Origin: an uncultured Alphaproteobacteria bacterium
GTDB lineage: Bacteria; Pseudomonadota; Alphaproteobacteria; MPNO01; UBA2964
Assembly (NCBI GenBank): GCA_938048165.1
Contig: CALIBP010000242.1
Coordinates: 1-55,748 of the forward strand
Reading direction: 5' to 3'
DNA length: 55,748 bases
Every line of letters starts with the position of its first letter. The first letter of the stretch is position 1. The notes below the pieces were generated by a model. That model worked only from the letters and a program-made list of their open reading frames with translations. It was not told the origin of the DNA and ran no database searches. Positions 28,625-48,848 of the stretch are shown here, piece by piece. The translations under genes and the position numbers were made by a program.

Positions 28625-28631
28625 TTCCATA

Positions 28632-28660
28632 AGAAGCTTGTGGAGGACTCGCCAGCTTCT
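28632..28660. repeat. Inverted repeat between the two large hydrolase genes
   Basis: AGAAGCT and AGCTTCT form perfect 7-bp arms around 15 bases, starting 7 bases after the stop of the first hydrolase gene. No T run follows, so it may be a weak transcript-stabilising hairpin or chance. Confidence 0.3.
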
Positions 28661-28739
28661 AATTCCCATGGTAGCGTTATGGATAATAAAACTGACACGC
28701 TTGATTAAGGGCGGTCACTAGCCTTACGGGGAGGCGCGT

Positions 28740-30059: not shown

Positions 30060-30102
30060 AATTTCACATACCTGACTTTAAACAGAAGAAAGGGAGATGG
30101 AG

Positions 30103-31635
30103 ATGCGTAAATTACTGAGTTTAAGAACCGCGGCGGCGGCGCTGACAATGGCGGCGGCGGTGACGCTGACGGCGACGTCAGCGACAGCGCAGAAGAAGGT
30201 CGTCATTGGCGCGACCGGTAACATATATGGCTGGAATCCGTATCAGGATTCTGCGGCCCAGATGTATGGCATCTGGTGCAACGTCTATGGATGTTTGTGC
30301 CGCTACGATTTTAAGAAGGCTAACTACTCCCCGATGTTGGCGGAAAGCTGGTCGGTCAATCCGAAGGACCCCAATGAATGGACATTTAAGCTCCGTAAGG
30401 ATGTCAAAAGCCATTCTGGTGCCGAGCTGACGGCCGCTGATGTTGTGCATACCATCAACCGCATCAAGACCGACAAGCAGAGCTCGCAAAAGCAAAACGT
30501 GCGGCCGTTGAAATCAGCGACGGCTATCGACAAACACACTGTCCAGATGATCACCAAAAAGCCAACGGCCCATCTGTTGCAGCATGTCTGTGATATTTAT
30601 GCCATTACGCGAAAAGAGGTGTTCGACAAGCACGGGCCGCGGAATGCGGATCGGAAATACCCCGATGGTTTCGGCCCTTACGCGCTGGACCGCGTCGTGA
30701 TCGGTGAGCAGGTTATTACAAAGCGTGCCAAGAACAGCGTGTTTGGCAATAAGGATAACCCCGATATTCTAATCTGGCGCAAAATGGCTGAGGTCGAACA
30801 ACGGGTGACAGCCTTGTTGAATGGCGAAATTCAGATCGCTCAGTTCATTCCACCGCATCTGATGAAACGTGTTGAAGATGGTAAGGGCACCAAGCTGTCT
30901 TTCACCGATTCAGTTGAAATCATGATGCTCTTGATGAACCCGGCCTTTAAGCCGTGGGACAACAAGAAACTGCGGCAAGCGGTGGCGCATGCAATTGATC
31001 GTGACACGATCATTAAAACCATTCTGCAGGGCATGGCAGGCAAGCTGAAAGGTGCCATTGGCCCCGGTCAGATTGGTTATGATGCGGAACGGTCAAAAGC
31101 CTTTGATCTCGCCTATGACCCCGCGAAAGCAGCACGTTTGGTGAAGGAAGCAGGTTATCCCAACGGGGTGGATGTTGAGATGTCGACGCCGGTTGGTCGT
31201 TATGTGAATGATAAAATCATTTCTCAGGCGATCGTACCGATGCTGGCTAAGGTGGGTATCCGCGCGAAACTAATGACACCGGAATGGTCGACGCAGTGGG
31301 CTAATGTTCGAAAGGGCAAAAGGTCGTTCTTCTATCAGGGTCGTGGTTCGGTCATCGATCCCGGTCCAGCCCTGGCGCAGTACTTCAAAACCGGTGTGTC
31401 ACCGCGCATCAAATATTCAAATCCAAAATATGACGCGCTGTTTGACGAAGTCGCCAAGGAGTTTGATCCCAAGAAGCGTCAGAAGCTGATCAATGATGCG
31501 ATTGCGGTTCTTGTGGAGGATGTTCCTGCTGTCTTTATGTGGCGTCACCGTCTGGCATATGGCGTTGCCAATAATGTCAGTATCTCGCCGCCGGCTAATG
31601 GTCGGATCTATGGTGAGAATATCCGCATCAAGTAG
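30103..31635 (+). CDS. ABC transporter substrate-binding protein (family 5)
   Basis: A 510-residue periplasmic binding protein of the peptide/nickel family. It has a classical signal peptide (MRKLL, an Ala/Thr-rich hydrophobic stretch, probable cut after ATSATA) and typical family 5 stretches such as WTFKLRKDVKSHSGAELTAADVVHTINR and LRQAVAHAIDRDTII. The ATG at 30103 is six bases after GGGAG; an ATG at 30097 sits too close to that site. It feeds the permeases at 33506 and 34503, although two hydrolase genes lie between. The ligand of this family ranges from peptides to opines and glycosides and is not deducible. Confidence 0.93.
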   Translation: MRKLLSLRTAAAALTMAAAVTLTATSATAQKKVVIGATGNIYGWNPYQDSAAQMYGIWCNVYGCLCRYDFKKANYSPMLAESWSVNPKDPNEWTFKLRKDVKSHSGAELTAADVVHTINRIKTDKQSSQKQNVRPLKSATAIDKHTVQMITKKPTAHLLQHVCDIYAITRKEVFDKHGPRNADRKYPDGFGPYALDRVVIGEQVITKRAKNSVFGNKDNPDILIWRKMAEVEQRVTALLNGEIQIAQFIPPHLMKRVEDGKGTKLSFTDSVEIMMLLMNPAFKPWDNKKLRQAVAHAIDRDTIIKTILQGMAGKLKGAIGPGQIGYDAERSKAFDLAYDPAKAARLVKEAGYPNGVDVEMSTPVGRYVNDKIISQAIVPMLAKVGIRAKLMTPEWSTQWANVRKGKRSFFYQGRGSVIDPGPALAQYFKTGVSPRIKYSNPKYDALFDEVAKEFDPKKRQKLINDAIAVLVEDVPAVFMWRHRLAYGVANNVSISPPANGRIYGENIRIK

Positions 31636-31662
31636 AGCGGAGTTTGAAGACCAATCGTATGA

Positions 31663-31690
31663 GGGCCCGCCCAGAATTTCGGGCGGGTCC
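31663..31690. terminator. Hairpin after the binding-protein gene (attenuator or mRNA stabiliser)
   Basis: A 10-bp stem with one G-T pair (arms 31663-31672 and 31681-31690, GC-rich, 8-base loop) lies 28 bases after the binding-protein stop. Only TT follows, so it is probably leaky. Such hairpins after binding-protein genes often keep that transcript more abundant than the permease part. Confidence 0.6.
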
Positions 31691-31728
31691 TTACGCGATA
31701 TCTAGTTAAGGGAAACGGGGAAGCAATT

Positions 31729-32616
31729 ATGCCAATGCCGAAGAAGGGGAAGTTCGTCACTGTTGATGGCGTAAAGACCCATTATTACGAGAAGGGTCGT
31801 GGCAAGACGGTCATTCTGGTGCATGGCGGCAATTTTGGCTCGGCCGAGGCTTCCGGCAATAGCTGGACCTGGAGCCGCAATTTCGACTTCCTCGCCAAAA
31901 AATTTCACGTCATCGCGGTCGACAAGCTGGGTCAGGGTTATACCGGCAATCCGCGAAAAGATTCTGATTACACCATGCATGCTGTGGTCCAGCATCTTGG
32001 CGCTTTCCTCCGCAAGATGAAGCTTGAGAATTGTCATCTTGTTGGTCATTCAAGGGGCGGTTATGTGGTGGCACGGCTTACCCTTGAACAGCCCGATTTG
32101 GTTACCTCCTGCACCTGTGTCGATAGCAATACCTTGGCGCCGGGCGTTGGGATGAATGAGGTCGTATTGGCCAATCCGCCCCATCCCGCCCTCAGTCGTG
32201 AATGCCAGCGCTGGGTTCTGGAGCGCTATTCCTACGGCCATGAACATATCGATGATGACTGGCTCGATGTGCTGGTGGATATCGGCAAACAGCCGAAACA
32301 TCTGGAGGCCGTCGCCAAACTTGAGAAGCAAAAGCTCAAGACTCGTCAGTTCCTGCCAAACCTGTCGGCGGATCGATCAGACACGTTTGCGCGTATTCGC
32401 GATACCGGCATGCGGCGGCCAACGATGATTATGTGGGGCTATAACGATCCCACCGCATTGCTCGAACAAGGTCAGCGTCTCTATGACCTGATAGCCTCAA
32501 CGGAACGTCGCACTTACATGCATATTCTTAATCGCGCCGGACACTTTTCGATGCGCGAACAGGCTGATAATTTTAACGCGACCCTGAGTGGTTTTATTGA
32601 GAGCGTGGCTGTTTGA
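31729..32616 (+). CDS. Alpha/beta hydrolase (meta-cleavage hydrolase-like), copy A
   Basis: A 295-residue classical alpha/beta hydrolase: oxyanion HGGNFG near 32-37, nucleophile Ser108 in GHSRGG, probable acid in WGYNDPT and catalytic His in NRAGHFS near the C terminus. The overall plan fits the MhpC/BphD group, which cleaves C-C bonds of ring-fission products, but also esterases and amide hydrolases. It is followed directly by a paralogue whose start overlaps its stop (TGATG), so the two arose by tandem duplication or work as a pair. Confidence 0.85.
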   Translation: MPMPKKGKFVTVDGVKTHYYEKGRGKTVILVHGGNFGSAEASGNSWTWSRNFDFLAKKFHVIAVDKLGQGYTGNPRKDSDYTMHAVVQHLGAFLRKMKLENCHLVGHSRGGYVVARLTLEQPDLVTSCTCVDSNTLAPGVGMNEVVLANPPHPALSRECQRWVLERYSYGHEHIDDDWLDVLVDIGKQPKHLEAVAKLEKQKLKTRQFLPNLSADRSDTFARIRDTGMRRPTMIMWGYNDPTALLEQGQRLYDLIASTERRTYMHILNRAGHFSMREQADNFNATLSGFIESVAV

Positions 32617-35455: not shown

Positions 35456-36691
35456 ATGCTTTCCCATGAGGACAATGAATTACTGACACGGACCAATGCC
35501 GGTACGCCGATGGGCGATTTGATGCGCCGCTATTGGATACCTGTCGTCTTCTCTGACCAGATCGAAAAACCCGATGGCCCGCCGGTCCGGGTCGAGTTGC
35601 TGGGTGAGAAGCTGGTGGCCTTTCGCGATACAAAAGGCCGCCCGGGTTTGATCGATGAACGCTGCCCGCATCGTACGGCCTCAATGTTTTTTGGTCGCAA
35701 TGAAGAATGCGGTTTGCGCTGCGTTTACCATGGCTGGAAGTTTGATATTCACGGTGATTGTGTTGATTTGCCGAGCGAACCAGAGGGCAGCACGTTACAA
35801 CGCAAAGTCAGGATCAAGGCCTATCCATGTCACGAGCAGGGCGGACTGGTGTGGGCCTATATGGGGCCCGCCGAGTTGAAACCGGCATTTCCTGAGCTCG
35901 AATGGACGATGGTCCCTGACTCACACCGCTATGTGACGCGCCGTATTCAGGAATGTAACTGGCTGCAGGGGCTGGAAGGTGGCTTTGATACCAGCCATCT
36001 CGCTTTTCTGCATCGTGGGACGGCAGCTTCGAACCGGCGCGTCGTGCCCTCGCAATATGCCGTCGTGCCGACTGATTTTGGTTTCATGGCGGGCACCGGT
36101 CGCGTCTACAAGGAAGGGGAAGTCAACTGGGCGTCCAACCTGATGTGTATGCCATTTCACAAGGTGTTTGCCACGAGTCCGGAGGCGGCTCATATGTGGG
36201 TGCCGATCAATGATGAGAATACTATGCTGTACAGCGTTGATTACTGGCCCGATAAAGCTCTAACCGAAGAAGAATTAGAACGCACCATAACGCACCACGG
36301 TATCCATACTGAGAATATTCCAGGGACAGATATTCCAATCCATAACAAGAGCAATGACTACAATATCGATCGCGAGCTTCAGGCGAGCGGGGAATCTTAC
36401 ACCGGAATGCAGGGGCTTGGCGTGCAGGATGCTGGTATTCAGGAATCGATGGGCCCTATTGCCGACCGCACGATTGAACATCTCGGCGTTAGCGATACGG
36501 CGATTATTCAAATCCGGAAGTTACTATTGCAAAGTCTGCGCGATTTCGTCGCTGGCAAAACCCCGCCGGGGCTCGACCCGGTAAGTTATCGCGCGCGATC
36601 CAGACGGTTTGATTTACCGGAGGATGGATCGTTTGAAGACGCCATTAACGAACAGTTGAAACGCGATTACGGCGCAGTCGCTGCCGAATAA
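35456..36691 (+). CDS. Rieske non-haem iron oxygenase, alpha subunit (phthalate dioxygenase-like)
   Basis: A 411-residue oxygenase. The Rieske cluster ligands are Cys70/His72 (ERCPHR) and Cys89/His92 (RCVYHGW). The mononuclear iron site is in LEGGFDTSHLAFLH, with His181 and His186 and bridging Asp178. The length and the DTSHLAFLH form fit the phthalate 4,5-dioxygenase/carbamate-type group that uses a single alpha subunit and a separate reductase. No reductase gene is in the window. GAGGAGG precedes the ATG, 29 bases after the permease stop, so it is probably co-transcribed with the importer. Confidence 0.92.
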   Translation: MLSHEDNELLTRTNAGTPMGDLMRRYWIPVVFSDQIEKPDGPPVRVELLGEKLVAFRDTKGRPGLIDERCPHRTASMFFGRNEECGLRCVYHGWKFDIHGDCVDLPSEPEGSTLQRKVRIKAYPCHEQGGLVWAYMGPAELKPAFPELEWTMVPDSHRYVTRRIQECNWLQGLEGGFDTSHLAFLHRGTAASNRRVVPSQYAVVPTDFGFMAGTGRVYKEGEVNWASNLMCMPFHKVFATSPEAAHMWVPINDENTMLYSVDYWPDKALTEEELERTITHHGIHTENIPGTDIPIHNKSNDYNIDRELQASGESYTGMQGLGVQDAGIQESMGPIADRTIEHLGVSDTAIIQIRKLLLQSLRDFVAGKTPPGLDPVSYRARSRRFDLPEDGSFEDAINEQLKRDYGAVAAE

Positions 36692-36705
36692 GAAAGGTTT
36701 AAAAG

Positions 36706-38355
36706 ATGAATGGTGCAGCGCTCGTTGCGGAAATACTGAAACGGGAAGGGACAGAGTTTTTATCCTGTTATCCCCGTAACCCTGTGATCGAAGAATGCAC
36801 AAAACTCGGCATTCGACCGATTCTCTGCCGCCAGGAACGGGTCGGTGTCGGGATTGCCGATGGGTATACGCGGATCATGCGCGGCAAGGTAAATGGTGTG
36901 TTTGCCGCGCAGGCAGGTCCCGGCATTGAGAACGCGTTTCCGGGAGTTGCTCAGGCCTATAGTGAAAATGTGCCGATGTTGATTCTTCCCGGTGGGATGG
37001 GGTCCGGACGGCAATATCGCCACCCGACCTTTAGCGCGGCAGATGTCTTTGCGCCGGTCACGAAATGGGCGGCGCGGGCCCATTCAGTTCAGGCAATTCC
37101 TGACCTGATGCGTCAGGCCTATCACGCGATGCGCACCGGTAAGGGCGGACCGGTTTTGCTGGAAATTCCTCTGGAAGTCTGGGATCAGGAATATGAAGAT
37201 GCCGTCGAATATGAATCCGTGAGACCCTATCCTTTGTCACCTGACCCGACGGCTATTACCGAGGCAGTTCGGATGTTGCTGGCGGCGGAAAATCCCATCC
37301 TGTGGGCCGGGCAAGGCGTGTTGTATGCAGAGGCCAGTGAGGCTGTTGCGGAATTGGCCGAACTGGTACCCGCTCCGGTGATGATGACCAATCCCGGTAA
37401 AAGCGCGATCGCGGAAAATCATCCGTTGGCATTAGGCGGCAGCACGCGCTCACGGCCACGGATGGTGTCAGAATTCATGGATCGGGCCGATCTGGTTTTT
37501 GCGATTGGCTCTAGCCTGACGATCACCAATTTTGGGCCCAAGGTACCGCCCGGCAAGAAGATCGTTCATTCGACCAATGATCCCTCCGACATCAACAAGG
37601 ACTACAAAGCAGATCATGCCGTCATTGGTGATGCCAAGATGGTGGCCGAAGCGCTGATTGCCGAGATCAAGCGCCAGCGCGGTGAGGTTGATGTAAATGT
37701 CGCCAAGACGCTTAAGGACGAGATTGCCTCGATCAAGGCGGCATGGATCGCGGACTGGCAAGATCACCGAACGTCAGATGAAGTGCCAATCAACCAGTAC
37801 CGTGTCATTCAGGACCTGATGGATACGGTTGATCGTGATCAGGTGATTATCACCCATGATTCCGGTAGTCCGCGTGAACAGATGATGTCGAGCTGGGAAA
37901 GCACGGCAGCGGGGTCCTATATGGGGTGGGGGAAATCCACGCAGCTTGGTTACGGTCTTGGGATCACTCTGGGTGCCAAAATGGCGGCGCCGGAAAAAAT
38001 TTGTATCAATGTGATGGGTGACGCGTCTTTTGGGATGACCGGACTGGACATAGAAACTGCAGCGCGGAACGGCATTGCCACGCTCACCATTGTCTTCAAT
38101 AACGGTGTGATGGGGGCCGAGCGGGATGTTCTGGTGCACTCGACAGAAAAGTACGGCGCACTGGATGTTGGCGGCAATTATGCAAAAGTCGCGGAAGGGC
38201 TGAACGTGAAGTCACGTCGTGTTGAAGCGCCGGAAGATATCATCCCGGCGATAAAAGAGGCCGTTGCCGTGACGCAGGCTGGATCGCCTTATCTCTTGGA
38301 GTTTATCGTTAAAGAAGGCCACGATTTCTCTCGGGACAAGGTCGCCGGGCTCTAG
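36706..38355 (+). CDS. Thiamine diphosphate-dependent enzyme (acetolactate synthase-like)
   Basis: A 549-residue ThDP enzyme with three domains. The cofactor-activating Glu44 is in CRQERVG, and the metal/diphosphate motif starts at residue 438 with GDASFGMTGLDIETAARNG and ends in FNNG. It is annotated acetolactate synthase-like because of general similarity, but no small regulatory subunit or isoleucine/valine genes are nearby. In this setting a decarboxylase or carboligase for a 2-oxo acid from ring cleavage is more likely. It follows the Rieske gene by 14 bases and ends close to the convergent SDR gene. Confidence 0.88.
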   Translation: MNGAALVAEILKREGTEFLSCYPRNPVIEECTKLGIRPILCRQERVGVGIADGYTRIMRGKVNGVFAAQAGPGIENAFPGVAQAYSENVPMLILPGGMGSGRQYRHPTFSAADVFAPVTKWAARAHSVQAIPDLMRQAYHAMRTGKGGPVLLEIPLEVWDQEYEDAVEYESVRPYPLSPDPTAITEAVRMLLAAENPILWAGQGVLYAEASEAVAELAELVPAPVMMTNPGKSAIAENHPLALGGSTRSRPRMVSEFMDRADLVFAIGSSLTITNFGPKVPPGKKIVHSTNDPSDINKDYKADHAVIGDAKMVAEALIAEIKRQRGEVDVNVAKTLKDEIASIKAAWIADWQDHRTSDEVPINQYRVIQDLMDTVDRDQVIITHDSGSPREQMMSSWESTAAGSYMGWGKSTQLGYGLGITLGAKMAAPEKICINVMGDASFGMTGLDIETAARNGIATLTIVFNNGVMGAERDVLVHSTEKYGALDVGGNYAKVAEGLNVKSRRVEAPEDIIPAIKEAVAVTQAGSPYLLEFIVKEGHDFSRDKVAGL

Positions 38356-38361
38356 GCGGTT

Positions 38362-39171
38362 TTAGCCGTCGCGGAAGGCATCCATCATCGGTTTCTGCTG
38401 GCCGCCATCGATCTCGATCATCGTGCCATTGACGAAATGCGCCAGTGGTGACGACAGATACGTCACCAGGTTAGCGACCTCAACGGTTTCGGCAATGCGG
38501 CCCAAGGGAATGCTGCGCGGTGCCAACTGATCAGCTTCCTCGATACTGAGATTCATGTCACGTGCCATGCCCCGGACGAGACCTGCCCAGCGCTCTGTCC
38601 GAACCGGGCCAGGGTTTACGGCGACGAAGCTGATATTGTCTTTGCCGTACTGGCCGGCCAGCGAAATGGTCAGGTTTTGACCCGCGGCATTGGCCGCGCC
38701 GGGGGCGATTTCCCAGTATGAATGTTTAACCCCGTCATTACCGATCAGGTTCACAACGCGTCCGCCGCCCGCTTTCTTGAAATGGGGCAGAACGGCCCGG
38801 GTACAGCGGACATAACCAAAAAATTTTAGCTGCAGCGCATCTTCCCATTGTTCGTCTGAGAGATATTCCAAAACACCACCAGTTGCAGCACCAGCATTAT
38901 TGACCAGAATATCAACGCCGCCGAGCGCGTCCACGGCACCCTCGATAAAGGCGTTAGCCTGTCCTGTATCAGTGAGGTCGGCGGTGATGGCGATGATGTT
39001 CTGACCGGTTGCGTCGGCAATCTCCTTGGCAGTGGCCTCGAGCGGTTCCTTGCGGCGCGCACAGATGGCGACATCGACGCCTTCCTGTGCCAGTCCGAGG
39101 GCAATCGCCTTGCCGATTCCTTCACTACCACCGGTTACGATTGCTTTCTTGCCGTTTAATTGCAGGTCCAT
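38362..39171 (-). CDS. SDR-family protein with atypical active site
   Basis: A 269-residue short-chain dehydrogenase/reductase. The cofactor motif TGGSEGIG at 13-20 and NNAG at 91-94 are intact, and Arg39/Arg40 after the second strand suggest NADP(H). The active site is not: aligned on the NLTISLA helix, the Tyr of YxxxK is Pro157 and the Lys is Asn161, and the usual Ser region reads NLIGNDG. It is therefore either a divergent SDR subgroup with another mechanism or a non-oxidoreductase. It is convergent with the ThDP enzyme gene and divergent from the molybdenum hydroxylase gene. Confidence 0.85.
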   Translation of the reverse strand: MDLQLNGKKAIVTGGSEGIGKAIALGLAQEGVDVAICARRKEPLEATAKEIADATGQNIIAITADLTDTGQANAFIEGAVDALGGVDILVNNAGAATGGVLEYLSDEQWEDALQLKFFGYVRCTRAVLPHFKKAGGGRVVNLIGNDGVKHSYWEIAPGAANAAGQNLTISLAGQYGKDNISFVAVNPGPVRTERWAGLVRGMARDMNLSIEEADQLAPRSIPLGRIAETVEVANLVTYLSSPLAHFVNGTMIEIDGGQQKPMMDAFRDG

Positions 39172-39332
39172 TGCTCGCTCTCATCTGATTTATTTTCGAA
39201 ATACTGGCGAGATCATGGCGCATGTTTGCCATACAGGAAACGGTTGTTTGGAATTTTTTGTCTCGTCGGTCGTTGCTCCCGGTAGCGTCCATGACTTACC
39301 TTGAGCAGAGACATTTGTTTCAGGACCCAGTG

Positions 39333-41624
39333 ATGAACGAGACGACACAGATACGCTATATAGGTGAAGCGGTAACCCGCCTGGAAGACCAGCGTTTTCT
39401 GACCGGCACCGGGCAGTTCATCGATGATGTTTCTCTGCCGGAAATGGTTCATATGGCGATCCTGCGCAGCCCGCAGGCGCATGGCTGGATTAAGGCGATT
39501 GATCTCTCGGCAGCTCGGGAAATGCCGGGTGTAATCGATGTTTTTGCCGCCGCTGATATCGACATGGCTTTGCCTGATATTCCGTTGCGACTGGCGCCTT
39601 TCAAAGGGTTTGAACGGTTTCTGCAAAAGCCTGTCGCGGTCGACAAGGTACGCTATGTCGGTGAGCCAATCGCCGTTGTCATCGCAGAAAATCGCTATCT
39701 CGCCGAAGACGCGCTGGCCGCAATTATCGTCGATATTGAAACCTTGCCGGCGGTAACGACACTTGATCAGGCGGAAGCTGGTGAGGTCTTGCTGCATGAT
39801 GCGGCTGGCGAGAATGTCGGGGCGGCCTATCCAGTCGGACGCGGCGATATCGAAGCGGCGTTTAAGGAGGCGTCCTATACAAGGCGGGAACGCTTTGTCA
39901 CCAACCGCCACGCCGCCTGTCCGCTGGAGACCCGCGGGCTGATTGGTGAATGTGATCAGTCGTCTGGCCTATTGCGGCTGACCGGAGCGGCCAAGGTCAC
40001 CTTCTTTAACCGGCGGCATCTGGCAGCGGCGTTTGCGGTTGAGGAAGATCAGGTGGAACTGATCGAGATGGATGTTGGCGGTGCCTTTGGCGCGCGCGGC
40101 GAGCTTTACCCCGAAGACTATCTGGTCCTCATCGCGGCTCAGCGGGTCGGCAAGCCGGTGAAATGGATCGAAGACCGCCGCGAGAATCTAATGGCGTGCA
40201 ATCACTCACGCGATATCACCTGTGATCTGGAGATTGCCGCGACACGAGAGGGTAAAATCCTCGGGATGCGCTGTGAAGTGCGCGGTGATCTCGGTGCCTA
40301 TGTTCGGACCAATGGCGGTGTCGTGCCGTCGAAGGCGGTTCAGTTCCTGCCGGGGCCCTATCGGATTCCCGCCTTTGCCGCCGAGATGAAGGCGATTGTA
40401 ACCAACAAGACACCCGTTGGCACGATGCGCGGGCCGGGGCGGTTTGAAGCGAATTTCTGTCGTGAGCGGTTGCTCGACATGATGGCCGATGATCTTGGCA
40501 TCGATCCGGCTGAATTACGGCTGCGCAATCTGATGAAGCCCGATGAGCTTCCTTATCGAATGGGTGAGCTGGTCCCCGGGGATCCTGACGCGACCTTTGA
40601 CGATGGCAACTATGCATCGGCCTTTCAGCAATTGCTCGGTGAGGTCGAGTATGATCATTGGAAAGACCATCAGGGTGAGGATAAAGACGGTAAGCTGATG
40701 GGACTCGGGCTGGCAATTTTTGTTGAGAGCAGTGCTGCCGGCCCGCCCGAGACGGCGCATATTACCGTGGCACCCGATGGCGGACTAGAATTGCGCACCG
40801 GTGCGTCGTCGGTCGGTCAGGGCCTCGAGACCGGCATGGCGCAAATCTGTGGCGAGATTCTGGGGGTCGATATGGCCGATATCACAGTACGCCATGGCAG
40901 CACGACCCTGGTCGAAAGCGGTGGCGGTACTTTTCATAGTCGCTGCACGGTAATGGCCGGCAATGCGGTGCGGAAAGCATCCGAGGCCTTGATTGAAAAG
41001 GCGATTGAACTGGCGGCGCTCCGCTGGAATGCCGCAGCCGACGGGCTTTCCTATGATTCCGGCGCAGTCATTCGCGAAGATGGTGAACATCTGACTTTGC
41101 AGGATCTTGCCGGGTTTGCGACGCTGTCCGCCGATGCCGGCTTCAGCAATGACGGCAAATTGTCTTATTCATATGGCGCGCATGCGGCGCTGGTCGCGGT
41201 CGATGTCGAGACCGGCGGCATCGAGCTTGTGAAATATGCGCTGATCGAGGAAATCGGCCGGGCGCTGAACCCGGCGATGGTGAAGGGGCAGGCGGTCGGT
41301 GGGTTGGTGCAGGGGCTGGGTGGGACGCTGCTGGATCATTTCATCTATGACGATGATGGCCAATTGATGACGACTAACCTGGCGGAATATCTGTTGCCGC
41401 TCGCGACAGATTTGCCGGAGATAACGGCGATTGCCCTTGAGGACAGCCCATCCAAGTTCAACCCGATGGGGTTCAAGGGCGCGGGAGAGGGAGGCATCGT
41501 CGCGGTTGCTGGCGCGGTCGGCAATGCGGTGGCGCAGGCATTGCAACAGTACGGTGTAAAGATCACTGATTTGCCCCTGTCACCAATGCGGCTTCGCGAA
41601 CTACTTGCTGATAAAGGAGTCTGA
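39333..41624 (+). CDS. Molybdenum hydroxylase large subunit (xanthine dehydrogenase family), orphan
   Basis: Starting from the ATG at 39333, where homology to other family members begins (IRYIGEAVTRLEDQRFLTGTGQF), the protein has 763 residues; ATGs at 39222 and 39291 are less likely. GGAFGARGE is at 249-257 and the catalytic glutamate is Glu719 in FKGAGEGGIVAVAG. There is no CO-dehydrogenase AYRCSFR loop, so it should hydroxylate an aldehyde or N-heterocycle. No [2Fe-2S] or FAD partner gene lies beside it; the only such subunit in the window is XdhA, 35 kb away. It is followed by the ACMSD-like gene with 1 base between. Confidence 0.88.
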   Translation: MNETTQIRYIGEAVTRLEDQRFLTGTGQFIDDVSLPEMVHMAILRSPQAHGWIKAIDLSAAREMPGVIDVFAAADIDMALPDIPLRLAPFKGFERFLQKPVAVDKVRYVGEPIAVVIAENRYLAEDALAAIIVDIETLPAVTTLDQAEAGEVLLHDAAGENVGAAYPVGRGDIEAAFKEASYTRRERFVTNRHAACPLETRGLIGECDQSSGLLRLTGAAKVTFFNRRHLAAAFAVEEDQVELIEMDVGGAFGARGELYPEDYLVLIAAQRVGKPVKWIEDRRENLMACNHSRDITCDLEIAATREGKILGMRCEVRGDLGAYVRTNGGVVPSKAVQFLPGPYRIPAFAAEMKAIVTNKTPVGTMRGPGRFEANFCRERLLDMMADDLGIDPAELRLRNLMKPDELPYRMGELVPGDPDATFDDGNYASAFQQLLGEVEYDHWKDHQGEDKDGKLMGLGLAIFVESSAAGPPETAHITVAPDGGLELRTGASSVGQGLETGMAQICGEILGVDMADITVRHGSTTLVESGGGTFHSRCTVMAGNAVRKASEALIEKAIELAALRWNAAADGLSYDSGAVIREDGEHLTLQDLAGFATLSADAGFSNDGKLSYSYGAHAALVAVDVETGGIELVKYALIEEIGRALNPAMVKGQAVGGLVQGLGGTLLDHFIYDDDGQLMTTNLAEYLLPLATDLPEITAIALEDSPSKFNPMGFKGAGEGGIVAVAGAVGNAVAQALQQYGVKITDLPLSPMRLRELLADKGV

Positions 41625-41625
41625 G

Positions 41626-42618
41626 ATGGCGATCGACGTTCATGCCCATTTTGTCCCACCGTTCGTCATCGAGACGTTGGCGGATCGCGGTGCCGATTTT
41701 GGGATCGATCTCGTCGAATCGGAGCCCAGCTGTCATTGCTGCAAATTTGCCTCGGGGATTCAGATCAGACCGTTTTTTAACACGCTGACCGATGTCGATA
41801 TTCGCCTTAATGAAATGGAAAAAATTGGGCTCCAGCATCAGGTTTTGTCATTGTGGACCGATATTTTTGGCTATGAAATGCCGGGTGATAAAGGACTCCT
41901 CTGGCATCGTTTGATGAATGAATGTCTGGCCGATTTGTGTGAAAAACATTCAGAGCAGTTTTCGTGGATGGCGTCGGGCCCGATGCAGGATGCCGCATTA
42001 GCCGCGCGCGAGCTTGAACGATCAATGAAAGCAGGGGCGGTCGGCGCGATTGTCGCGACCCATATTGACCATGAAAATCTCGGCGAATGTGATCTCGATG
42101 AATATTGGGCCGCCTGTGTCGCGTTGAAGGCGCCGGTGTTTCTGCATCCCGCTCAGCCGATTGCGCCACAGCGCGCCAAAAAGTTCGCACTCAACCAGGT
42201 GGTTGCCTATCCCAATGACACGACGCTGACCGTTGGTTCGCTCATCTCGAACGGTGTGCTGGATCGGTTCCCCGACTTGCAGCTGGTGCTGTCGCATGGT
42301 GGAGGGTCAGTCCCGTGGCTGATCGGCCGGTTTGACCGGATGCATCGCGCCGCCCCGCACAAGCTCACTGGCACGGTCGCCGAGAATCCGCCTTCCGACT
42401 ATCTCCGCCAGATGCATTACGACACTATCCTGCATCACGGCCCCGCCTTGCGCTATCTGCGTGATCTGGTCGGGATTGATCAGATGGTGCTGGGGACTGA
42501 TCTGCCCTTCCCGCCGGGCGACCCTGATCCGCTGACGACATTAAAAAATGCCGCGTTCAGCGCTGCCGAGATCGAACAGATTGCCGAGGCAAACCCGCGC
42601 GCCCTCTATAACTTCTGA
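41626..42618 (+). CDS. Amidohydrolase family 2 protein (ACMSD-like decarboxylase)
   Basis: A 330-residue protein of the ACMSD/gamma-resorcylate decarboxylase group: MAIDVHAHFVPP with metal ligands His6 and His8, FLHPAQPIAP, LSHGGGSVPWLIGRFDR and the late GTDLPFPPGDPDP carrying the metal Asp. These zinc enzymes remove carboxyl groups from ring or semialdehyde acids without a cofactor. GGAG six bases before the ATG and a 1-base gap to the molybdenum hydroxylase gene indicate coupling, so hydroxylation followed by decarboxylation is a reasonable sequence of steps. Confidence 0.88.
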   Translation: MAIDVHAHFVPPFVIETLADRGADFGIDLVESEPSCHCCKFASGIQIRPFFNTLTDVDIRLNEMEKIGLQHQVLSLWTDIFGYEMPGDKGLLWHRLMNECLADLCEKHSEQFSWMASGPMQDAALAARELERSMKAGAVGAIVATHIDHENLGECDLDEYWAACVALKAPVFLHPAQPIAPQRAKKFALNQVVAYPNDTTLTVGSLISNGVLDRFPDLQLVLSHGGGSVPWLIGRFDRMHRAAPHKLTGTVAENPPSDYLRQMHYDTILHHGPALRYLRDLVGIDQMVLGTDLPFPPGDPDPLTTLKNAAFSAAEIEQIAEANPRALYNF

Positions 42619-42619
42619 T

Positions 42620-43795
42620 TTAGGACCACAGCCGGTTGGTGGCGATCTCTGCCCCTTCGGCCATGGCCTTGAATTTTGACCAGACAATATCGGCGGTGAC
42701 CTGAGGTTCCTGTCGCGCAAACGTGCCAAAGCCACAATCCGATCCCGCCATCACCCTTTCGCGACCGACCACACCGGCCCAGTTGCACAGCCTTTGCGCG
42801 ATCAGCTTGGGATGCTCGACGAAGTTGCTGGTGGAATCGATCACGCCGGGAATGAAGATCTTGTGATCAGGAATATCCATCCCCTGGATGTCTTCCCATT
42901 CATGTTCATGACGCGGGTTGGCTCCTTCGAACAGGATCGCCGCCGGGCGGGATGCCATTAAAACCGGAAATATCTTCGCGAGTGGGAAGTCGTGGGTATG
43001 CGGGCCCTCGTAATTGCCCCAGCAGATATGCAACCGCATGGCATCAGCCGGAATATTGGCAGTGGCCGCATTGACCGCTTCCATATTGCGCCAGGCAATC
43101 TTGAGGAACTCATCGTCTGACAGGTGTTTATATTGATTGTGTCGTGCCGAGCCAAAATCCGGACAGTCGATCTGCAGGATCAGCCCCGCCGCGTGGATCG
43201 CCTCATACTCGGTCTTCATCGCATCGGCCATCGCGGCGATATAGGTCTCTTCGTTCTTGTAATAATCGTCGGGCACAAACTTGCTGAGCACACCCGGCGA
43301 CGCCGCGGTCATAAATGTTTCCGTCGGGTTGCTCTCCTGAACCGCATCCTGAATATGGGCGAGATCACGCCTGAGCGGTTCCTCATTCACATAGGCAATC
43401 GGGCCAACCACCCAGGGACGGCCATATTGCAGCCCCCAGCCGCCGCGCTGTTTTTTGACCCGTGCTTCGAACTCGGGATGCTCCATCACATCCCGATTGG
43501 CATTTTCCTTGGGGATATCGGCCCCCGGCGGCGCTGCAGGATCGATGTTCGACAGGCGATGCTTCACATAAAACGTGTAGGAGATTTTCCCCATATCGCC
43601 GTCGGAAACGGTATCGACACCGCACGCGACTTGTTTGGCGACAACCTCCTTTACGGCCTCGGCGACCCGCGCTTCCAGGGCGGCGGCGTCATGTGGCTGG
43701 TTATGATCCTCCGCGGTCAGCATGTCAAAGAGATCGAGAGGCCGCGGCAGGCTGCCGACATGGGTGGTGAGAATACGGTCGGTGCTGGTTTTCAT
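42620..43795 (-). CDS. MetE-like (cobalamin-independent methionine synthase, C-terminal-type) protein
   Basis: A 391-residue TIM-barrel protein of the short MetE/UROD group. It starts ILTTHVGSLPRP, has DGDMGKISYTFYVKHRL near 66-81, and the thiol-activating zinc ligands in RLHICWGNYEG (His256, Cys258) and GSDCGFGTF (Cys354). It lacks the N-terminal half of true MetE. Relatives act in methyl or alkyl transfer to thiols, including coenzyme M epoxyalkane transferase, but many are uncharacterised. It is convergent with the ACMSD-like gene, 1 base apart. Confidence 0.85.
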   Translation of the reverse strand: MKTSTDRILTTHVGSLPRPLDLFDMLTAEDHNQPHDAAALEARVAEAVKEVVAKQVACGVDTVSDGDMGKISYTFYVKHRLSNIDPAAPPGADIPKENANRDVMEHPEFEARVKKQRGGWGLQYGRPWVVGPIAYVNEEPLRRDLAHIQDAVQESNPTETFMTAASPGVLSKFVPDDYYKNEETYIAAMADAMKTEYEAIHAAGLILQIDCPDFGSARHNQYKHLSDDEFLKIAWRNMEAVNAATANIPADAMRLHICWGNYEGPHTHDFPLAKIFPVLMASRPAAILFEGANPRHEHEWEDIQGMDIPDHKIFIPGVIDSTSNFVEHPKLIAQRLCNWAGVVGRERVMAGSDCGFGTFARQEPQVTADIVWSKFKAMAEGAEIATNRLWS

Positions 43796-43963
43796 TTTGA
43801 TTTATCCCGAACTGGTTTCAGCGCCTATCTTCCGGGCAAGGAGGGGAGCAAGTCAATCGCCCCGGCAAATAAGCAAAACCGCCAAAGAAACTGGCCCCAA
43901 CTGCCGTTCCCAGCGTGTGGGTGGCGCGCTAGACTATTGCCAGGAACACAAGACAGGGAGGGT

Positions 43964-44698
43964 ATGATGCAATCACCGGCAGACTTCGAACAATCGATGG
44001 CCTAGACCATCTGGGACACCCGCTGGAAGACCCATACGGCCTTTGATATCTGGCTCAACAACCATATGTGCCGCGAGGGTGCTGCCGTGTTCGGGCTGGA
44101 ACATTGCGTTTTTGCCGATCAGTTTCCTCGCTGGTTCGGCCATATCATCGGTAATTGCCCCGCCCTCGATGCCCGCCAGTACATGATCGACAATATGTTT
44201 GTCGAAGAGGTCCACGACCCGACCATCGGCACCGGCCATTATGAAAGCATGGTCGATTTCGCGGTTGCCCTCGGCCATGACCGCGATTTCGTACTCGGCT
44301 ATCAGGGGGCGGTCTATACCAAGATGGCGCTGGCCTATTGGGATCGCGCCGCCCGCGCCTGGCCATGGCTGGAGGCCTTCGCCGCCGTCGCCGGGCTCGA
44401 AGCCGCCCGTGGCCCGATGGTTGCCGCATTGGGTAATGTCGCCTCGCTCAAACGCAGCGTGTGGGAGCCGCTCGGTCTCTATGATCAGGCTCTGGAACAC
44501 TGGTCAGCCGGGGAAGCCGCTGATCTGCCGGAAGGCGGCCATGGTGACATGACACTCAAGATTCTGGCCAGACATGCCGACAGCGACGAAAAGCAGACCC
44601 GCGTGCTGGCCCTGCTGCAGGAGACCATGCAGATCCGCTGGCTGCATTTTGACAATATCGGTCGCGACGCCCTCAAAGCCTCTGGCGTAGATTTTTAG
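43964..44698 (+). pseudogene. PqqC/TenA-like (haem-oxygenase fold) gene interrupted by TAG
   Basis: A GGGAGG ribosome site precedes ATG at 43964, but codon 14 (44003-44005) is TAG. The same frame then stays open to 44698 and reads TIWDTRWKTHTAFDIWLNN, then EEVHDPTIGTGHYESMVDFAVALG and a long helical rest, as in PqqC/TenA/CADD-like iron oxygenases. A single base change (GAG to TAG) would explain it. The next in-frame ATG at 44066 gives 210 residues but removes the first helix and has no clear ribosome site. It is either a recent pseudogene, a sequence error, or a gene using the downstream start. Confidence 0.7.
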
Positions 44699-44775
44699 GC
44701 TGCTCTGGCGTAGACGCCTGACCCGATAATCCTTAAACAGAGACACAAACAGATTTTCAACAGGAGCCACTTCAC

Positions 44776-45393
44776 ATGACCGATACCAAGGATTTCCCCG
44801 CCGACGTACTGCCCGAAAGCCGCTCGCGCGTGGCGTTACCCAACCGCGATGATCTCGATGACGCGGCGCGGGAGGTTTATGACGCGCATGTCCATATCGA
44901 CCCCGCCGCTGGCAAGTCGCTCGCCGGGCTCTATGGCCCCGGCGGCATCCGCCTGCACTCCAAAAAACTGTCAGGCCTGTCCTCGCCGGCGGCACATTAT
45001 CTGCGCCATGGCGCGGATTATACCGAGCAGGAACGCGAGGTCGCGATCCTCACCACCGCCCGCGAATATGACTCCCAGTTTGAGTGGTGCGCCCATGAGC
45101 GCGAAGGGCTGCGCGTCGGCCTGCCGATGGAAACCGTCGATGTCATCCGCCACCGGCGTCCGACCGATGGGCTGCCCGAAACCCATGCCGTGCTGATCGA
45201 AATGGGCCGCCAGCTGTTCCAGACCAAGAAGCTGGACTCCGCGACCTATGCCCGCGCCACCAAGGCATTTGAGATTCCGACCCTCGTCGATCTCATCTCG
45301 CTGATGGGTGCCTATTCCGCCACCGCCATCCTGCTCGCCGCGTTCGACGTGCAGCTGCCCGAAGGGTCAGACCAGTCGCTACCGGTGGATTAA
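44776..45393 (+). CDS. Carboxymuconolactone decarboxylase/AhpD-like family protein
   Basis: A 205-residue all-helical protein of the CMD family, recognisable by LSSPAAHYLRHGADYTEQEREVAILTTAREYDSQFEWCAHE and the late LMGAYSATAILLAAFDVQLPEG. It has the EWCAHE form of gamma-carboxymuconolactone decarboxylases and no CxxC redox pair, so an AhpD-type peroxidase role is unlikely. CAGGAG lies upstream of the ATG. Its place after ring-oxidising genes fits a decarboxylase or hydrolase in a degradative route, but the substrate is unknown. Confidence 0.85.
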   Translation: MTDTKDFPADVLPESRSRVALPNRDDLDDAAREVYDAHVHIDPAAGKSLAGLYGPGGIRLHSKKLSGLSSPAAHYLRHGADYTEQEREVAILTTAREYDSQFEWCAHEREGLRVGLPMETVDVIRHRRPTDGLPETHAVLIEMGRQLFQTKKLDSATYARATKAFEIPTLVDLISLMGAYSATAILLAAFDVQLPEGSDQSLPVD

Positions 45394-45553: not shown

Positions 45554-45829
45554 ATGGAGCAGAAACGGCAGGCCCCCCAAAAAGAACCAGCGGCGCAGAC
45601 ATCTCCCGGGCGTATGCCGGGGAGCCTGATCGAGAGTGAGCGCGAGCATCTGCTGTTCGTCCTGCGCTACGCGCTGGCGCAGAACTTCAAATACCGCCCG
45701 CGCAAACGCCAGCATTATGACGCGGATGATTTCACCACCTGGGCCCAGGCGGTCCTCAACCATATGGAACTCACCGGCCTGCGGTTTTTTAAGGAGGAGG
45801 AGCGGGGGGAAAAGCATTTTTCGTATTGA
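45554..45829 (+). CDS. Hypothetical protein, 91 residues
   Basis: A small, charged protein starting MEQKRQAPQKEPAAQTSPG and continuing with ESEREHLLFVLRYALAQNFKYRPRKRQHYDADDFTTWAQAVLNH, which reads as two amphipathic helices. I do not recognise a family. A TTG at 45518 could extend it by 12 residues. A 132-codon frame on the other strand covers the same bases but reads as an antisense shadow. It marks the start of a run of uncharacterised genes after the catabolic block. Confidence 0.55.
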   Translation: MEQKRQAPQKEPAAQTSPGRMPGSLIESEREHLLFVLRYALAQNFKYRPRKRQHYDADDFTTWAQAVLNHMELTGLRFFKEEERGEKHFSY

Positions 45830-45903
45830 GTCGTAAAAATAGGTTTTAAATCCTATAACATTTTTATAAGATGTTCTCCTAAAGGTAGCAAGGGGGGCGT
45901 GTT

Positions 45904-46365
45904 ATGACGCTAGGTGTCCATTTCGCCATTACAGATGAGCAGAGAAAAGCACTTGAGAATGCTGCAAATGATGAGGAGCGGATTGATTATGTCAAAGAGG
46001 TTATTGAAGAAGAGTGGGATGAGGACTATCTGGTTGAAAGCGACAAAGCCTGGGATACGATCCATCGCAGCTTGGGAGAAATGCCGCCGGGAATAGAGTG
46101 GCTTTATCCGGTTCGTGAAGAGCTCGGCCCGTTTGCCTTGCCTGATGATTATGGCGAATATCCTCTCAAAATCTGCATTCTTGGTGGCAAAAAACTCGTT
46201 GAAGAATACGGGGATTATTTTATCCGGTTGATTGAGCCGCACGAGATTTCCGATCTGGTTCCGGCGCTGGAAAAAATCGATATCGTCGAACTGGGAGAGA
46301 GGTATTTCAAACACTGCAAGGATGTCTGGCCGGAATTTGGCCAAGAGGATTTTGAATATACCTAG
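45904..46365 (+). CDS. DUF1877 family protein
   Basis: A 153-residue protein with the DUF1877 (YfbM-like) pattern: LGVHFAITDEQ at the start, YVKEVIEEEW followed by SDKAWDTIHRSLG, and a C-terminal half with IEPHEISDLVPALEKI. The function is unknown; homologues sit near toxin, immunity and secretion loci in several bacteria but nothing here supports such a role. AAGGGGGG lies upstream of the ATG, and the 75 bases before it are very AT-rich with two small inverted repeats (45839-45856 and 45857-45875). Confidence 0.85.
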   Translation: MTLGVHFAITDEQRKALENAANDEERIDYVKEVIEEEWDEDYLVESDKAWDTIHRSLGEMPPGIEWLYPVREELGPFALPDDYGEYPLKICILGGKKLVEEYGDYFIRLIEPHEISDLVPALEKIDIVELGERYFKHCKDVWPEFGQEDFEYT

Positions 46366-46495
46366 GAATATTTTGTCGTGGTCCGCGATTTTTTTCGGAA
46401 AATGGAAAGAAATGGCCGTTCGGTAATCTTTACCGCTGCCGGCGCGTAAAATTGTGTCGCGTAATCTACTTAATAATCATGGGTCGAGGCTCTTA

Positions 46496-46524
46496 TTGAC
46501 AATACATTAAAAATTGGTAATAAT
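46496..46524 (+). promoter_or_regulatory. Strong sigma-70-like promoter
   Basis: TTGACA at 46496-46501 and TAATAAT at 46518-46524, spacer 16-17 bases, in an AT-rich stretch. Transcription would start near 46530, directly before the hairpin at 46536-46567. Confidence 0.55.
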
Positions 46525-46535
46525 TCCTATTATTA

Positions 46536-46567
46536 AAACCCGTGTCAAAATTTGGCCCGGGTTTTTT
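46536..46567 (+). terminator. Intrinsic terminator
   Basis: AAACCCG and CGGGTTT pair across a 15-base loop and end in a run of six T. It lies 170 bases after the DUF1877 stop but only a few bases after the candidate promoter at 46496-46524. Confidence 0.55.
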
Positions 46568-46573
46568 GTTGGC

Positions 46574-46600
46574 TGGCCGCGGGGACGCGGCGGCCATTTT
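46574..46600 (+). terminator. Second hairpin with T tract
   Basis: TGGCCGC and GCGGCCA pair around a 9-base loop and are followed by five T, seven bases after the previous T tract. It ends 29 bases before the start at 46630. Confidence 0.5.
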
Positions 46601-46629
46601 TATGTCGAAATTTCGCGACGTAAACAGGA

Positions 46630-47766
46630 ATGAGGACCGGAGAGTTTTTGAAAGGTACAGTTGGCCAGGGCGCTGAAAACGATCCTGACGACGTATTCGT
46701 GGTACGACATCTGATGCGGGTCGCTGGCGGAGGAGAAGTGGATCAAACGAAAAATGATCCTGCTACAGATGGATTTTTTGATCTTGAACTTAACGACGAA
46801 GTTCATGAATACCAGGAGAAAAACGGCCTTCGTGTTGACGGCATCCTGACCCCTGGTGGGGAAACCGAGAGAAATATTGACAGTCGTATTGTCGATGATG
46901 GCCGCCCGATTGGACAAACAACCGATTTTTCATTGAACCATAGCGTCGGTGAAGGTGCTGAGAACGTTCCGGAGGATGTCGCGACAGTTCGGCGCTTGCT
47001 CGCTGCTTCAGGCCGCTTGCCATTCGATATCAGCTCTCCACCACCACCATTTATCGACGGAAAAACTGTAGATGTCCTTCGAGATGTTCAGTTGGAAAAG
47101 GGGCTTCCAACAGATGGGTCGGTCTCCGATGGAGATGCAACCCTCGTCGCGTTGCAGGAAGAAGCGGAGGACAAACTTGACAAGCGCGTGAATCAAAAAA
47201 GTGTACAGGTAGCGGCGTTGCCAGCTCTTGTGCTCGCTATTTTGGCCGGTACCAGGGTTGCCGCTCATTTGGCGAAAACTCTCGGCAGGTCAGGGGGCGC
47301 TATCATTGTCGGTGAAGCTGGAAAGAAGGCAGCGGAAGAAATGCGCCGCGAAAGACAGGAGAGAACTGAAGCGGCCCCGCCCGTGCTGAATATCTTTCCT
47401 GGCGGGGCAACAGAGCCGCCGATTCCGGACGGCGATCGTGAAGAGTTCCCCGAACATCGCAATGACGTGCAACCGGAAAGATTTCCTGTGCTGTCCTCAA
47501 GCGGTCCATGGATACAGATTTTACCTGACCAATCAGATGAAAACCTTATTCCTAATATCTTTGAAAACAGAGATTGTCGGGTTGCCCCTGATTGCCGGCA
47601 TTGTTGGAGAGCCTTTTTTGAAGGAACTTTTGCCGGGCGTCGAAAATCGTTTGTAGTGTCTTGGAATGATGATCCCGCAGGTCTTTCAGTTGCTTCCGTC
47701 GAACCTCCAGCCGTTCATATTCGGAGGTTTTTTTACAGGCATCCGGTGCCGGTTCCTTCTTGGTGA
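46630..47766 (+). CDS. Protein with two peptidoglycan-binding-like repeats
   Basis: A 378-residue reading frame. The N-terminal part has two copies of a repeat: GTVGQGAENDPDDVFVVRHLMRVAGG near residue 9 and HSVGEGAENVPEDVATVRRLLAASG near residue 106, each followed by a DG...YQ or DVQ..KGL..DG pattern as in peptidoglycan-binding_1 modules. A hydrophobic stretch (VAALPALVLAILAG) lies near residue 195, then a charged, Pro-rich tail. The last 70 or so residues (from about 47552) overlap the convergent gene and look unlike protein, so the true end may have been lost. AGGA directly abuts the ATG, a poor site. Confidence 0.6.
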   Translation: MRTGEFLKGTVGQGAENDPDDVFVVRHLMRVAGGGEVDQTKNDPATDGFFDLELNDEVHEYQEKNGLRVDGILTPGGETERNIDSRIVDDGRPIGQTTDFSLNHSVGEGAENVPEDVATVRRLLAASGRLPFDISSPPPPFIDGKTVDVLRDVQLEKGLPTDGSVSDGDATLVALQEEAEDKLDKRVNQKSVQVAALPALVLAILAGTRVAAHLAKTLGRSGGAIIVGEAGKKAAEEMRRERQERTEAAPPVLNIFPGGATEPPIPDGDREEFPEHRNDVQPERFPVLSSSGPWIQILPDQSDENLIPNIFENRDCRVAPDCRHCWRAFFEGTFAGRRKSFVVSWNDDPAGLSVASVEPPAVHIRRFFYRHPVPVPSW

Positions 47767-48052
47767 GCCGTAAAATGCGTCTTTGGTAATTTGATTTCAG
47801 ACCAGCTTCGCTCCGGTCAACACTTGCCAGATTACTTTCTACCCTCGCCAGGATTGTCTGCTCCGCGTCAAGTGTGGCCTGAATACGTTCAAGATTGGAT
47901 TGACCGACACCCAGATTGGCGATGAAACCGGCAAATAAAATGACGCCAACGGCAACAAACAGCAGCATGCCGATGGCGACCAGCGCGATCATTGAAAAAC
48001 GCCGCAGTTGAATCGCCCGGCGGCGCAGATCACGGGCAAGCTCCAATCTCAA
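47552..48052 (-). CDS. Small membrane protein with coiled-coil region
   Basis: A 166-residue protein with one or two membrane segments (MIALVAIGMLLFVAVGVILFAGF near residues 21-44) followed by a long heptad-like, charged region (NLERIQATLDAEQTILARVESN, later ERLEVRRKQLKDLRDHH). No family is recognised. It follows the membrane protein gene at 48064 by 11 bases and is probably co-transcribed with it. Its 3' 215 bases overlap the end of the + strand repeat protein, so at least one of the two ends is doubtful. Confidence 0.6.
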   Translation of the reverse strand: MRLELARDLRRRAIQLRRFSMIALVAIGMLLFVAVGVILFAGFIANLGVGQSNLERIQATLDAEQTILARVESNLASVDRSEAGLKSNYQRRILRLTKKEPAPDACKKTSEYERLEVRRKQLKDLRDHHSKTLQTIFDARQKFLQKRLSNNAGNQGQPDNLCFQRY

Positions 48053-48063
48053 CTCGAGTTTGC

Positions 48064-48579
48064 CTAGCAGGGCGCTGTAGATGGAGTCCGGCAGCTCCCA
48101 ACCGGCATTATTTGTTTATCCGGTATTGGTTCGGGTGGGGTTCCGCCAACGATCAGCCCGCGGAAGTCATACAGGATGATCTCAACAAAAATGCAGAAAA
48201 AAACCAGCATGACGACGCCTTGCGGCGTATCCCGCAATCCGCCGATCAAGGACAGGGTGATCATGCCGCCTAGTGTGACAAGTGCGATTTTAATAAAAAA
48301 ACTCGCGACTGGCCGGTTTTTGAGAGGCCAGCTGGTAATTGACGCCAACAGCACGGGTTGCCAGGGTCGAATGCTGTAACAAATGGCAAAGGAAAGGCTG
48401 GCAAGCAGTAAGCCGCTCAGCCCGATGCCGGCGACGTCGGTTTCGCTGCTCATTCTACCAAAGATCGCCTGAAGGAAATCCCCGAAATCAGCGGCAATTC
48501 GCGTCCAGTCATACAGGAGGACGACACTGAAGAGGCCCGTGCCAATAAGAATCAGGATAAACAGAATTTTTCGTTTCAT
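48064..48579 (-). CDS. Membrane protein of unknown function
   Basis: With the ATG at 48579, which has an excellent GGGAGG site nine bases upstream, the protein has 171 residues; an earlier ATG at 48654 is less likely. Four hydrophobic segments are visible, beginning KILFILILIGTGLFSVVLLYDW and ending GVVMLVFFCIFVEIILYDF. No known family is recognised. The short cytoplasmic tail ends in a Pro-rich stretch. The gene sits upstream of the coiled-coil membrane protein gene. Confidence 0.65.
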   Translation of the reverse strand: MKRKILFILILIGTGLFSVVLLYDWTRIAADFGDFLQAIFGRMSSETDVAGIGLSGLLLASLSFAICYSIRPWQPVLLASITSWPLKNRPVASFFIKIALVTLGGMITLSLIGGLRDTPQGVVMLVFFCIFVEIILYDFRGLIVGGTPPEPIPDKQIMPVGSCRTPSTAPC

Positions 48580-48848
48580 GATTGCCTCCCCCCAGAGGTT
48601 GCCCTGTACAAGGCCAACGGATAAAAGGATGGTGCATAATCGCATGGCAGGCAATGGCAGCAGATTAAGTGGCTTGCTATGGCGTGTCCGCGTTCCTCAA
48701 TGGGGCTACCAGGAGCCGCCCTACGCTAGACTCTCAGTCTTCCCTGTGGCACATAACGGCTGCCCGTAGGAATGGGCCGGGCGGATCCCGATCGACTCAG
48801 GATCACCTACTGGAAATTCTTTTTATTACAGGTGGTTAGAGGTCTCAA

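Follow-up and report, generated by a model that had tools for sequence, protein, structure and literature searches.

The stretch of DNA analysed here (the window, 55,748 nucleotides from an uncultured Alphaproteobacteria bacterium) carries a gene for a protein with a predicted haem-oxygenase-like fold whose reading frame is broken by a TAG codon shortly after its start. We interpret this TAG as a real and recent nonsense allele, to which we give a probability of about 0.6, and which has probably caused loss or strong reduction of function. Judged by homology, the frame ahead of the TAG lies within the gene, relatives have sense codons at the interrupted position, and TAG is a stop in the code of this genome.

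The interrupted frame and its relatives

The gene consists of the following elements.

43956-43962, plus strand: Shine-Dalgarno-like sequence GGGAGGG, seen in the sequence directly upstream of the ATG at 43964
43967-44002, plus strand: the gene's initial 12 codons, judged by alignment with relatives and preceded by an extra ATG at 43964
44003-44005, plus strand: in-frame TAG, inside predicted helix 1 (residues 4-18 in the model of an intact relative)
44006-44698, plus strand: remainder of the haem-oxygenase-fold (CADD/PqqC/TenA-like) gene by alignment, 230 codons and a TAG stop, with the fold taken from the relative's model
44066-44068, plus strand: next in-frame ATG past the TAG, without a Shine-Dalgarno-like sequence; a protein from here is without predicted helices 1 and 2

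Beyond the first TAG the frame stays open for 230 sense codons (44006-44695) until a second TAG (44696-44698) closes it, and neither the sequence nor the comparison with relatives revealed a second stop within this open frame. The first-pass annotation had described a ribosome site with an ATG at 43964, a TAG at 44003 and 231 further codons, all of which can be read off the sequence, the last figure including the final stop. Two adjacent ATGs (43964 and 43967) stand in frame ahead of the TAG, and between the TAG and the ATG at 44066 there is no in-frame ATG, GTG or TTG. An ATG-containing frame cut by a single stop and followed by at least 200 open codons occurs at 15 places in the window, this gene included, and such a layout proves nothing by itself. 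It is the homology upstream of the TAG that lifts the observation above chance.

With the part behind the TAG as query, a pattern-based search found 10 loci in a species-genome collection, and when 385 genomes of the class were searched, two of them yielded a further three copies; no stretch of a viral-contig collection matched the gene patterns. At E 1e-30 or better, relatives occur in 3 of 27 genomes of the order and 4 of the 385 sampled genomes of the class, the own genome being counted in both. The nearest relative, from a genome of the same genus (G002, locus L031), is 94% identical to the part after the TAG over 228 residues, aligns with the gene without an internal gap, and begins M-Q-S-P-E-A-F-E-Q-A-M-A-R-I-I-W with no stop. 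Its start corresponds to 43967.

The relatives' loci (L031-L043) hold 19 copies of the gene, of which 12 were aligned, five tandem copies were read by eye and two, the first copies in L038 and L039, were left out as their contigs begin past the TAG position. The 12 aligned relatives share 44-92% identity with the window protein, and the counts refer to these closer relatives, beyond which lie weaker matches of about 21-31% identity. None of the 12 has a stop there, the residues being Arg (4), Gln (3), Asp (3), Lys (1) and Glu (1); L032-L034, which supply three of the four Arg residues, resemble one another closely, and the 12 are thus not independent cases. The five readable tandem copies likewise have sense codons (Gln in two, Leu, Glu and Arg), so that the comparison of relatives at this codon, which the first-pass annotation had proposed, returned sense in 12 of 12 aligned sequences and 5 of 5 tandem copies. 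The same annotation took the change to be GAG to TAG, which is not supported and amounts to a guess: the nearest relative encodes Arg there and others Arg, Gln, Lys, Glu, Asp or Leu, and with such variation several ancestral codons would be possible.

The residues Phe8 and Trp21, which flank the TAG position, are invariant across 13 sequences, and nine of the 12 residues ahead of the TAG match the nearest relative. Over 43967-44002 the first, second and third codon positions are identical to that relative in 11, 10 and 7 of 12 cases, a pattern that is coding-like, though the stretch is short (12 codons). Because the relatives carry sense codons at the TAG position and the codon positions show this pattern, the upstream frame is, by homology, part of the gene. 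A protein truly starting at 44066 was rejected on the same two observations; relatives beginning at that position, which would have made the upstream frame irrelevant, were not seen among those read, all sharing the upstream frame. Homology and spacing make the second ATG, 43967, the likelier start, and the TAG is then likely codon 13; the in-frame TAG of the earlier description therefore stands, and its numbering as codon 14, counted from 43964, probably does not. A start at the ATG at 43997 would change nothing, since a single codon separates it from the TAG.

In several drafts labelled Alphaproteobacteria or Rhodospirillales the gene is present two or three times in a row, the copies having diverged (L035 5001-7294, L036 5001-8604, L038 1-1384 and L039 4-1329).

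Selection on the frame and the predicted fold

The frame without the TAG differs from the nearest relative with dN 0.039 and dS 0.84, a ratio of 0.046 with stop codons left out. This is the 23rd lowest among the 34 measurable ORFs of the window, many of the others having saturated dS above 1; three of the 37 matched ORFs had no measurable dS and were dropped from the ranking. Distances to outgroups, as NG86 estimates, are similar for the window gene and its relative (dN to L032 0.160 and 0.168, to L035 0.210 and 0.196, respectively), and of the 15 residues that differ between the two, none can be placed unambiguously on the window side and two fall on the relative's side. On these comparisons there is no clear acceleration on the side of the window gene, and selection on the frame beyond the TAG seems to be of the usual purifying kind. 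For this reason the TAG is either recent or not real. If all nonsynonymous differences were neutral and arose after the stop, its age would be at most about a tenth of the branch's, as obtained by setting 0.039 against one half of 0.84 and ignoring saturation. An old pseudogene was rejected on the dN/dS of 0.046, the single in-frame stop and the absence of gaps against the nearest relative.

Pfam gave no match at E 0.001, and the 230 amino acids after the stop scored 23.4 bits against the CADD family NCBIfam TIGR04305, far below the cut-off of 200. A profile of nine relatives matched solved structures, the TenA/THI-4 protein 4lqx at 1.6e-12, CADD at 6.8e-08 and PqqC at 3.8e-05. L031, the intact relative, was modelled with AlphaFold (243 residues, mean pLDDT 89.9, pTM 0.87), and the model was compared with known structures by Foldseek and VIA-align, the latter giving Z 21.4 to 4lqx, 21.1 to CADD 1rcw and 20.3 to PqqC 1otw over 210-232 residues, at only 17-20% identity in those rows. 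The predicted fold is shared with CADD (4-aminobenzoate synthase), PqqC, TenA/THI-4 and the haem-oxygenase-like dimetal oxidases (HDO), and the protein is, according to the model, haem-oxygenase-like, all-helical and of the CADD/PqqC/TenA type, in agreement with the fold named from the sequence at the outset. The TAG falls at residue 13 of the model, within helix 4-18. The residues E81/E82, H92, E146, D187 and H193 (numbered from 43964) are invariant in 13 sequences and are candidate metal ligands by analogy with CADD. The spacing of ligands in the last helix of CADD, which we take to be His-x3-Asp-x2-His, is absent as such from these sequences. The usual HDO ligand set is described in a review as three His and three carboxylates (PMC13108848).

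Translation could in principle restart at the ATG at 44066, giving a working protein of 210 residues with the short upstream frame as a leader. This ATG lies 60 bases past the TAG, corresponds to residue 34 of the model, just ahead of predicted helix 36-63, and has all the candidate metal residues downstream of it. We nevertheless consider such a restart highly improbable. The ATG has no Shine-Dalgarno-like sequence, and the shortened protein would drop the invariant Phe8 and Trp21 with the first two predicted helices, a part that belongs to the fold, since the alignments with the solved chains of CADD and PqqC already begin at residue 6 or 1 of the model. Differences to the relative over 43967-44065 also lie mainly at third codon positions (30, 29 and 20 of 33 identical at positions 1, 2 and 3). 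A mechanical ORF caller starts the protein at 44066 all the same and loses those two helices.

TAG in this genome and the origin of the interruption

Of the window's ORFs, 37 have a match in the sister genome G002, and among these the haem-oxygenase-fold gene is the only one with an in-frame stop. A wider control took in 83 ORFs with at least 70% identity to G002 (26,700 aligned codons), drawn from 55 of the 307 contigs or parts of them (533,912 bases including the window) and compared with 880 kb of G002. Eight of these ORFs hold 14 in-frame stops, 13 of them in the seven ORFs other than ours. Five of the eight are on L124, with stops within the first 47 aligned residues and identities before the first stop that range from 11/21 to 5/5, and in our judgement the called starts of these five probably lie too far upstream. 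On the minus strand of L121 (4419-4979), a frame of 187 codons in G002 has three in-frame stops here, and the ORF of 109 residues ends at the first; identity is 85/109 before that stop and 22/27 after it. The ORF on L050 has 111 residues and is of doubtful reality, with 31/43 residues identical before its stop and 34/45 after. The corresponding figures for the window gene are 9/12 before the TAG and 58 of the next 60 after it. As L121 and L050 also resemble G002 on both sides of their stops, this genome may contain broken genes besides the one in the window.

Gene ends were comparable with G002, lying within 15 codons of the end of the match, in 74 cases; 21 of these genes terminate in TAG, and for nine of the 21 the relative has TAA or TGA instead. 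Release factor 1 (RF1) is present with an open frame and scores above the family cut-off. No CUA anticodon was found among the 23 tRNA genes named by ARAGORN from 24 Rfam tRNA matches in this 68%-complete genome, nor was PylS matched in it (67.86% complete). Because TAG ends so many genes, RF1 is present, and neither a CUA tRNA nor PylS was found, recoding of TAG in this organism is very unlikely. Reassignment to an amino acid, which would draw its support from the TAG itself alone, is refuted as far as the sampled genes go, as the 14 in-frame stops are 5 TAG, 4 TGA and 5 TAA, with no excess of TAG, and the gene's own final stop is TAG. Readthrough, an option in the first-pass annotation, gains no support as a dedicated mechanism: TAG is an ordinary stop in the genes compared, and the two components sought were not found in the incomplete genome.

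The TAG is seen in one assembly of a single strain (67.86% complete, 307 contigs), and a consensus or assembly error, with a sense codon and an intact gene in the living strain, is the less likely but still serious alternative. The draft state of the genome speaks for it, as does a frame that is otherwise open, under purifying selection and free of a second disabling change; the clean downstream frame is equally expected from a sequence error. Against it, many broken genes are not seen, with one such ORF among the 37 in the window, and the other 13 in-frame stops are in seven of the 83 control ORFs, in our judgement mostly at doubtful 5' ends. Single-base errors that create a stop should also be rarer than real nonsense alleles. 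Gene decay, a strain variant and sequence error, originally put forward, are all supported as candidates.

The nonsense allele is further favoured by a position that is open in all relatives read, a TAG that works as a stop, and the lack of a second gene copy at E 0.001 in 2.9 Mb of genome sequence. Under such an allele ribosomes would start at 43967 (or 43964), make a peptide of 12-13 residues and stop at the TAG. The enzyme would be absent, or present in traces through leaky decoding of the TAG or weak restart at 44066, and the allele, whether loss-of-function or low-expression, would be fresh and too young for further damage.

Selection might instead maintain low-level expression by leaky decoding of the TAG, which we think improbable. 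The dN/dS well below 1 is compatible with it, relatives differ in the residue at this position, which may therefore accept several inserted amino acids, and leaky decoding has been proposed for many bacterial in-frame stops, with PMC7918605 as precedent. The tRNA, PylS and RF1 results from this incomplete genome count against it, and nothing points to conservation of the TAG, which none of the 12 aligned relatives shares. A selected down-switch at strain level, in which traces of enzyme come from leaky decoding of an allele that repeatedly appears in the population and is lost from it, would be a long shot.

Neighbourhood and precedent

The genes around the interrupted one are as follows.

35456: Rieske oxygenase
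36706: TPP enzyme
38362, minus strand: short-chain dehydrogenase
39222: molybdopterin-binding dehydrogenase-type protein
41605: amidohydrolase
42620-43795, minus strand: neighbouring MetE-catalytic-domain-like protein, no in-frame stop
44776-45393, plus strand: neighbouring 205-amino-acid protein with no Pfam or NCBIfam match and no in-frame stop

The gene lies within a run of oxidative or catabolic-looking genes, and the gene order from 39222 to 45393 is conserved in the relative. We infer a role in the oxygen-dependent breakdown of some organic compound, and one gene of this run may be inactive in the strain. The cluster at 35456-45393 has dS to G002 of 0.59-1.56, below most other measurable ORFs of the window, and was perhaps exchanged more recently. 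Other parts of the window, 28625-32615 and 45794-48724 among them, hardly match the syntenic 80 kb of G002, if at all. Relatives of about 79% identity occur in drafts labelled Dehalococcoidia, Chloroflexi and SAR202 (L032 3396-4079, L033 and L034 5001-5684), where a Rieske protein related to the one in the window (37-38% identity) is encoded upstream of them. Transfer between phyla or mis-binned contigs are possible reasons for this placement.

By itself the interruption is of little importance, as in-frame stops in healthy-looking genes are reported to be widespread: Belinky et al. (2021, PMC7918605) describe short-lived in-frame stops with dN/dS below 1 across bacteria. The same source cautions that many of the in-frame stops seen in genomes are artefactual and that, close to the 5' end, a misannotated start may lie behind them; the upstream stretch that speaks against a misannotated start here has only 12 codons. 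The main set of that study required a stop in at least two species as a guard against artefacts, whereas the TAG here comes from one draft genome. It is like the stops described there in being a single in-frame TAG in a gene under purifying selection and in its apparently recent origin and, if real, adds one more example to a known class, an ordinary event.
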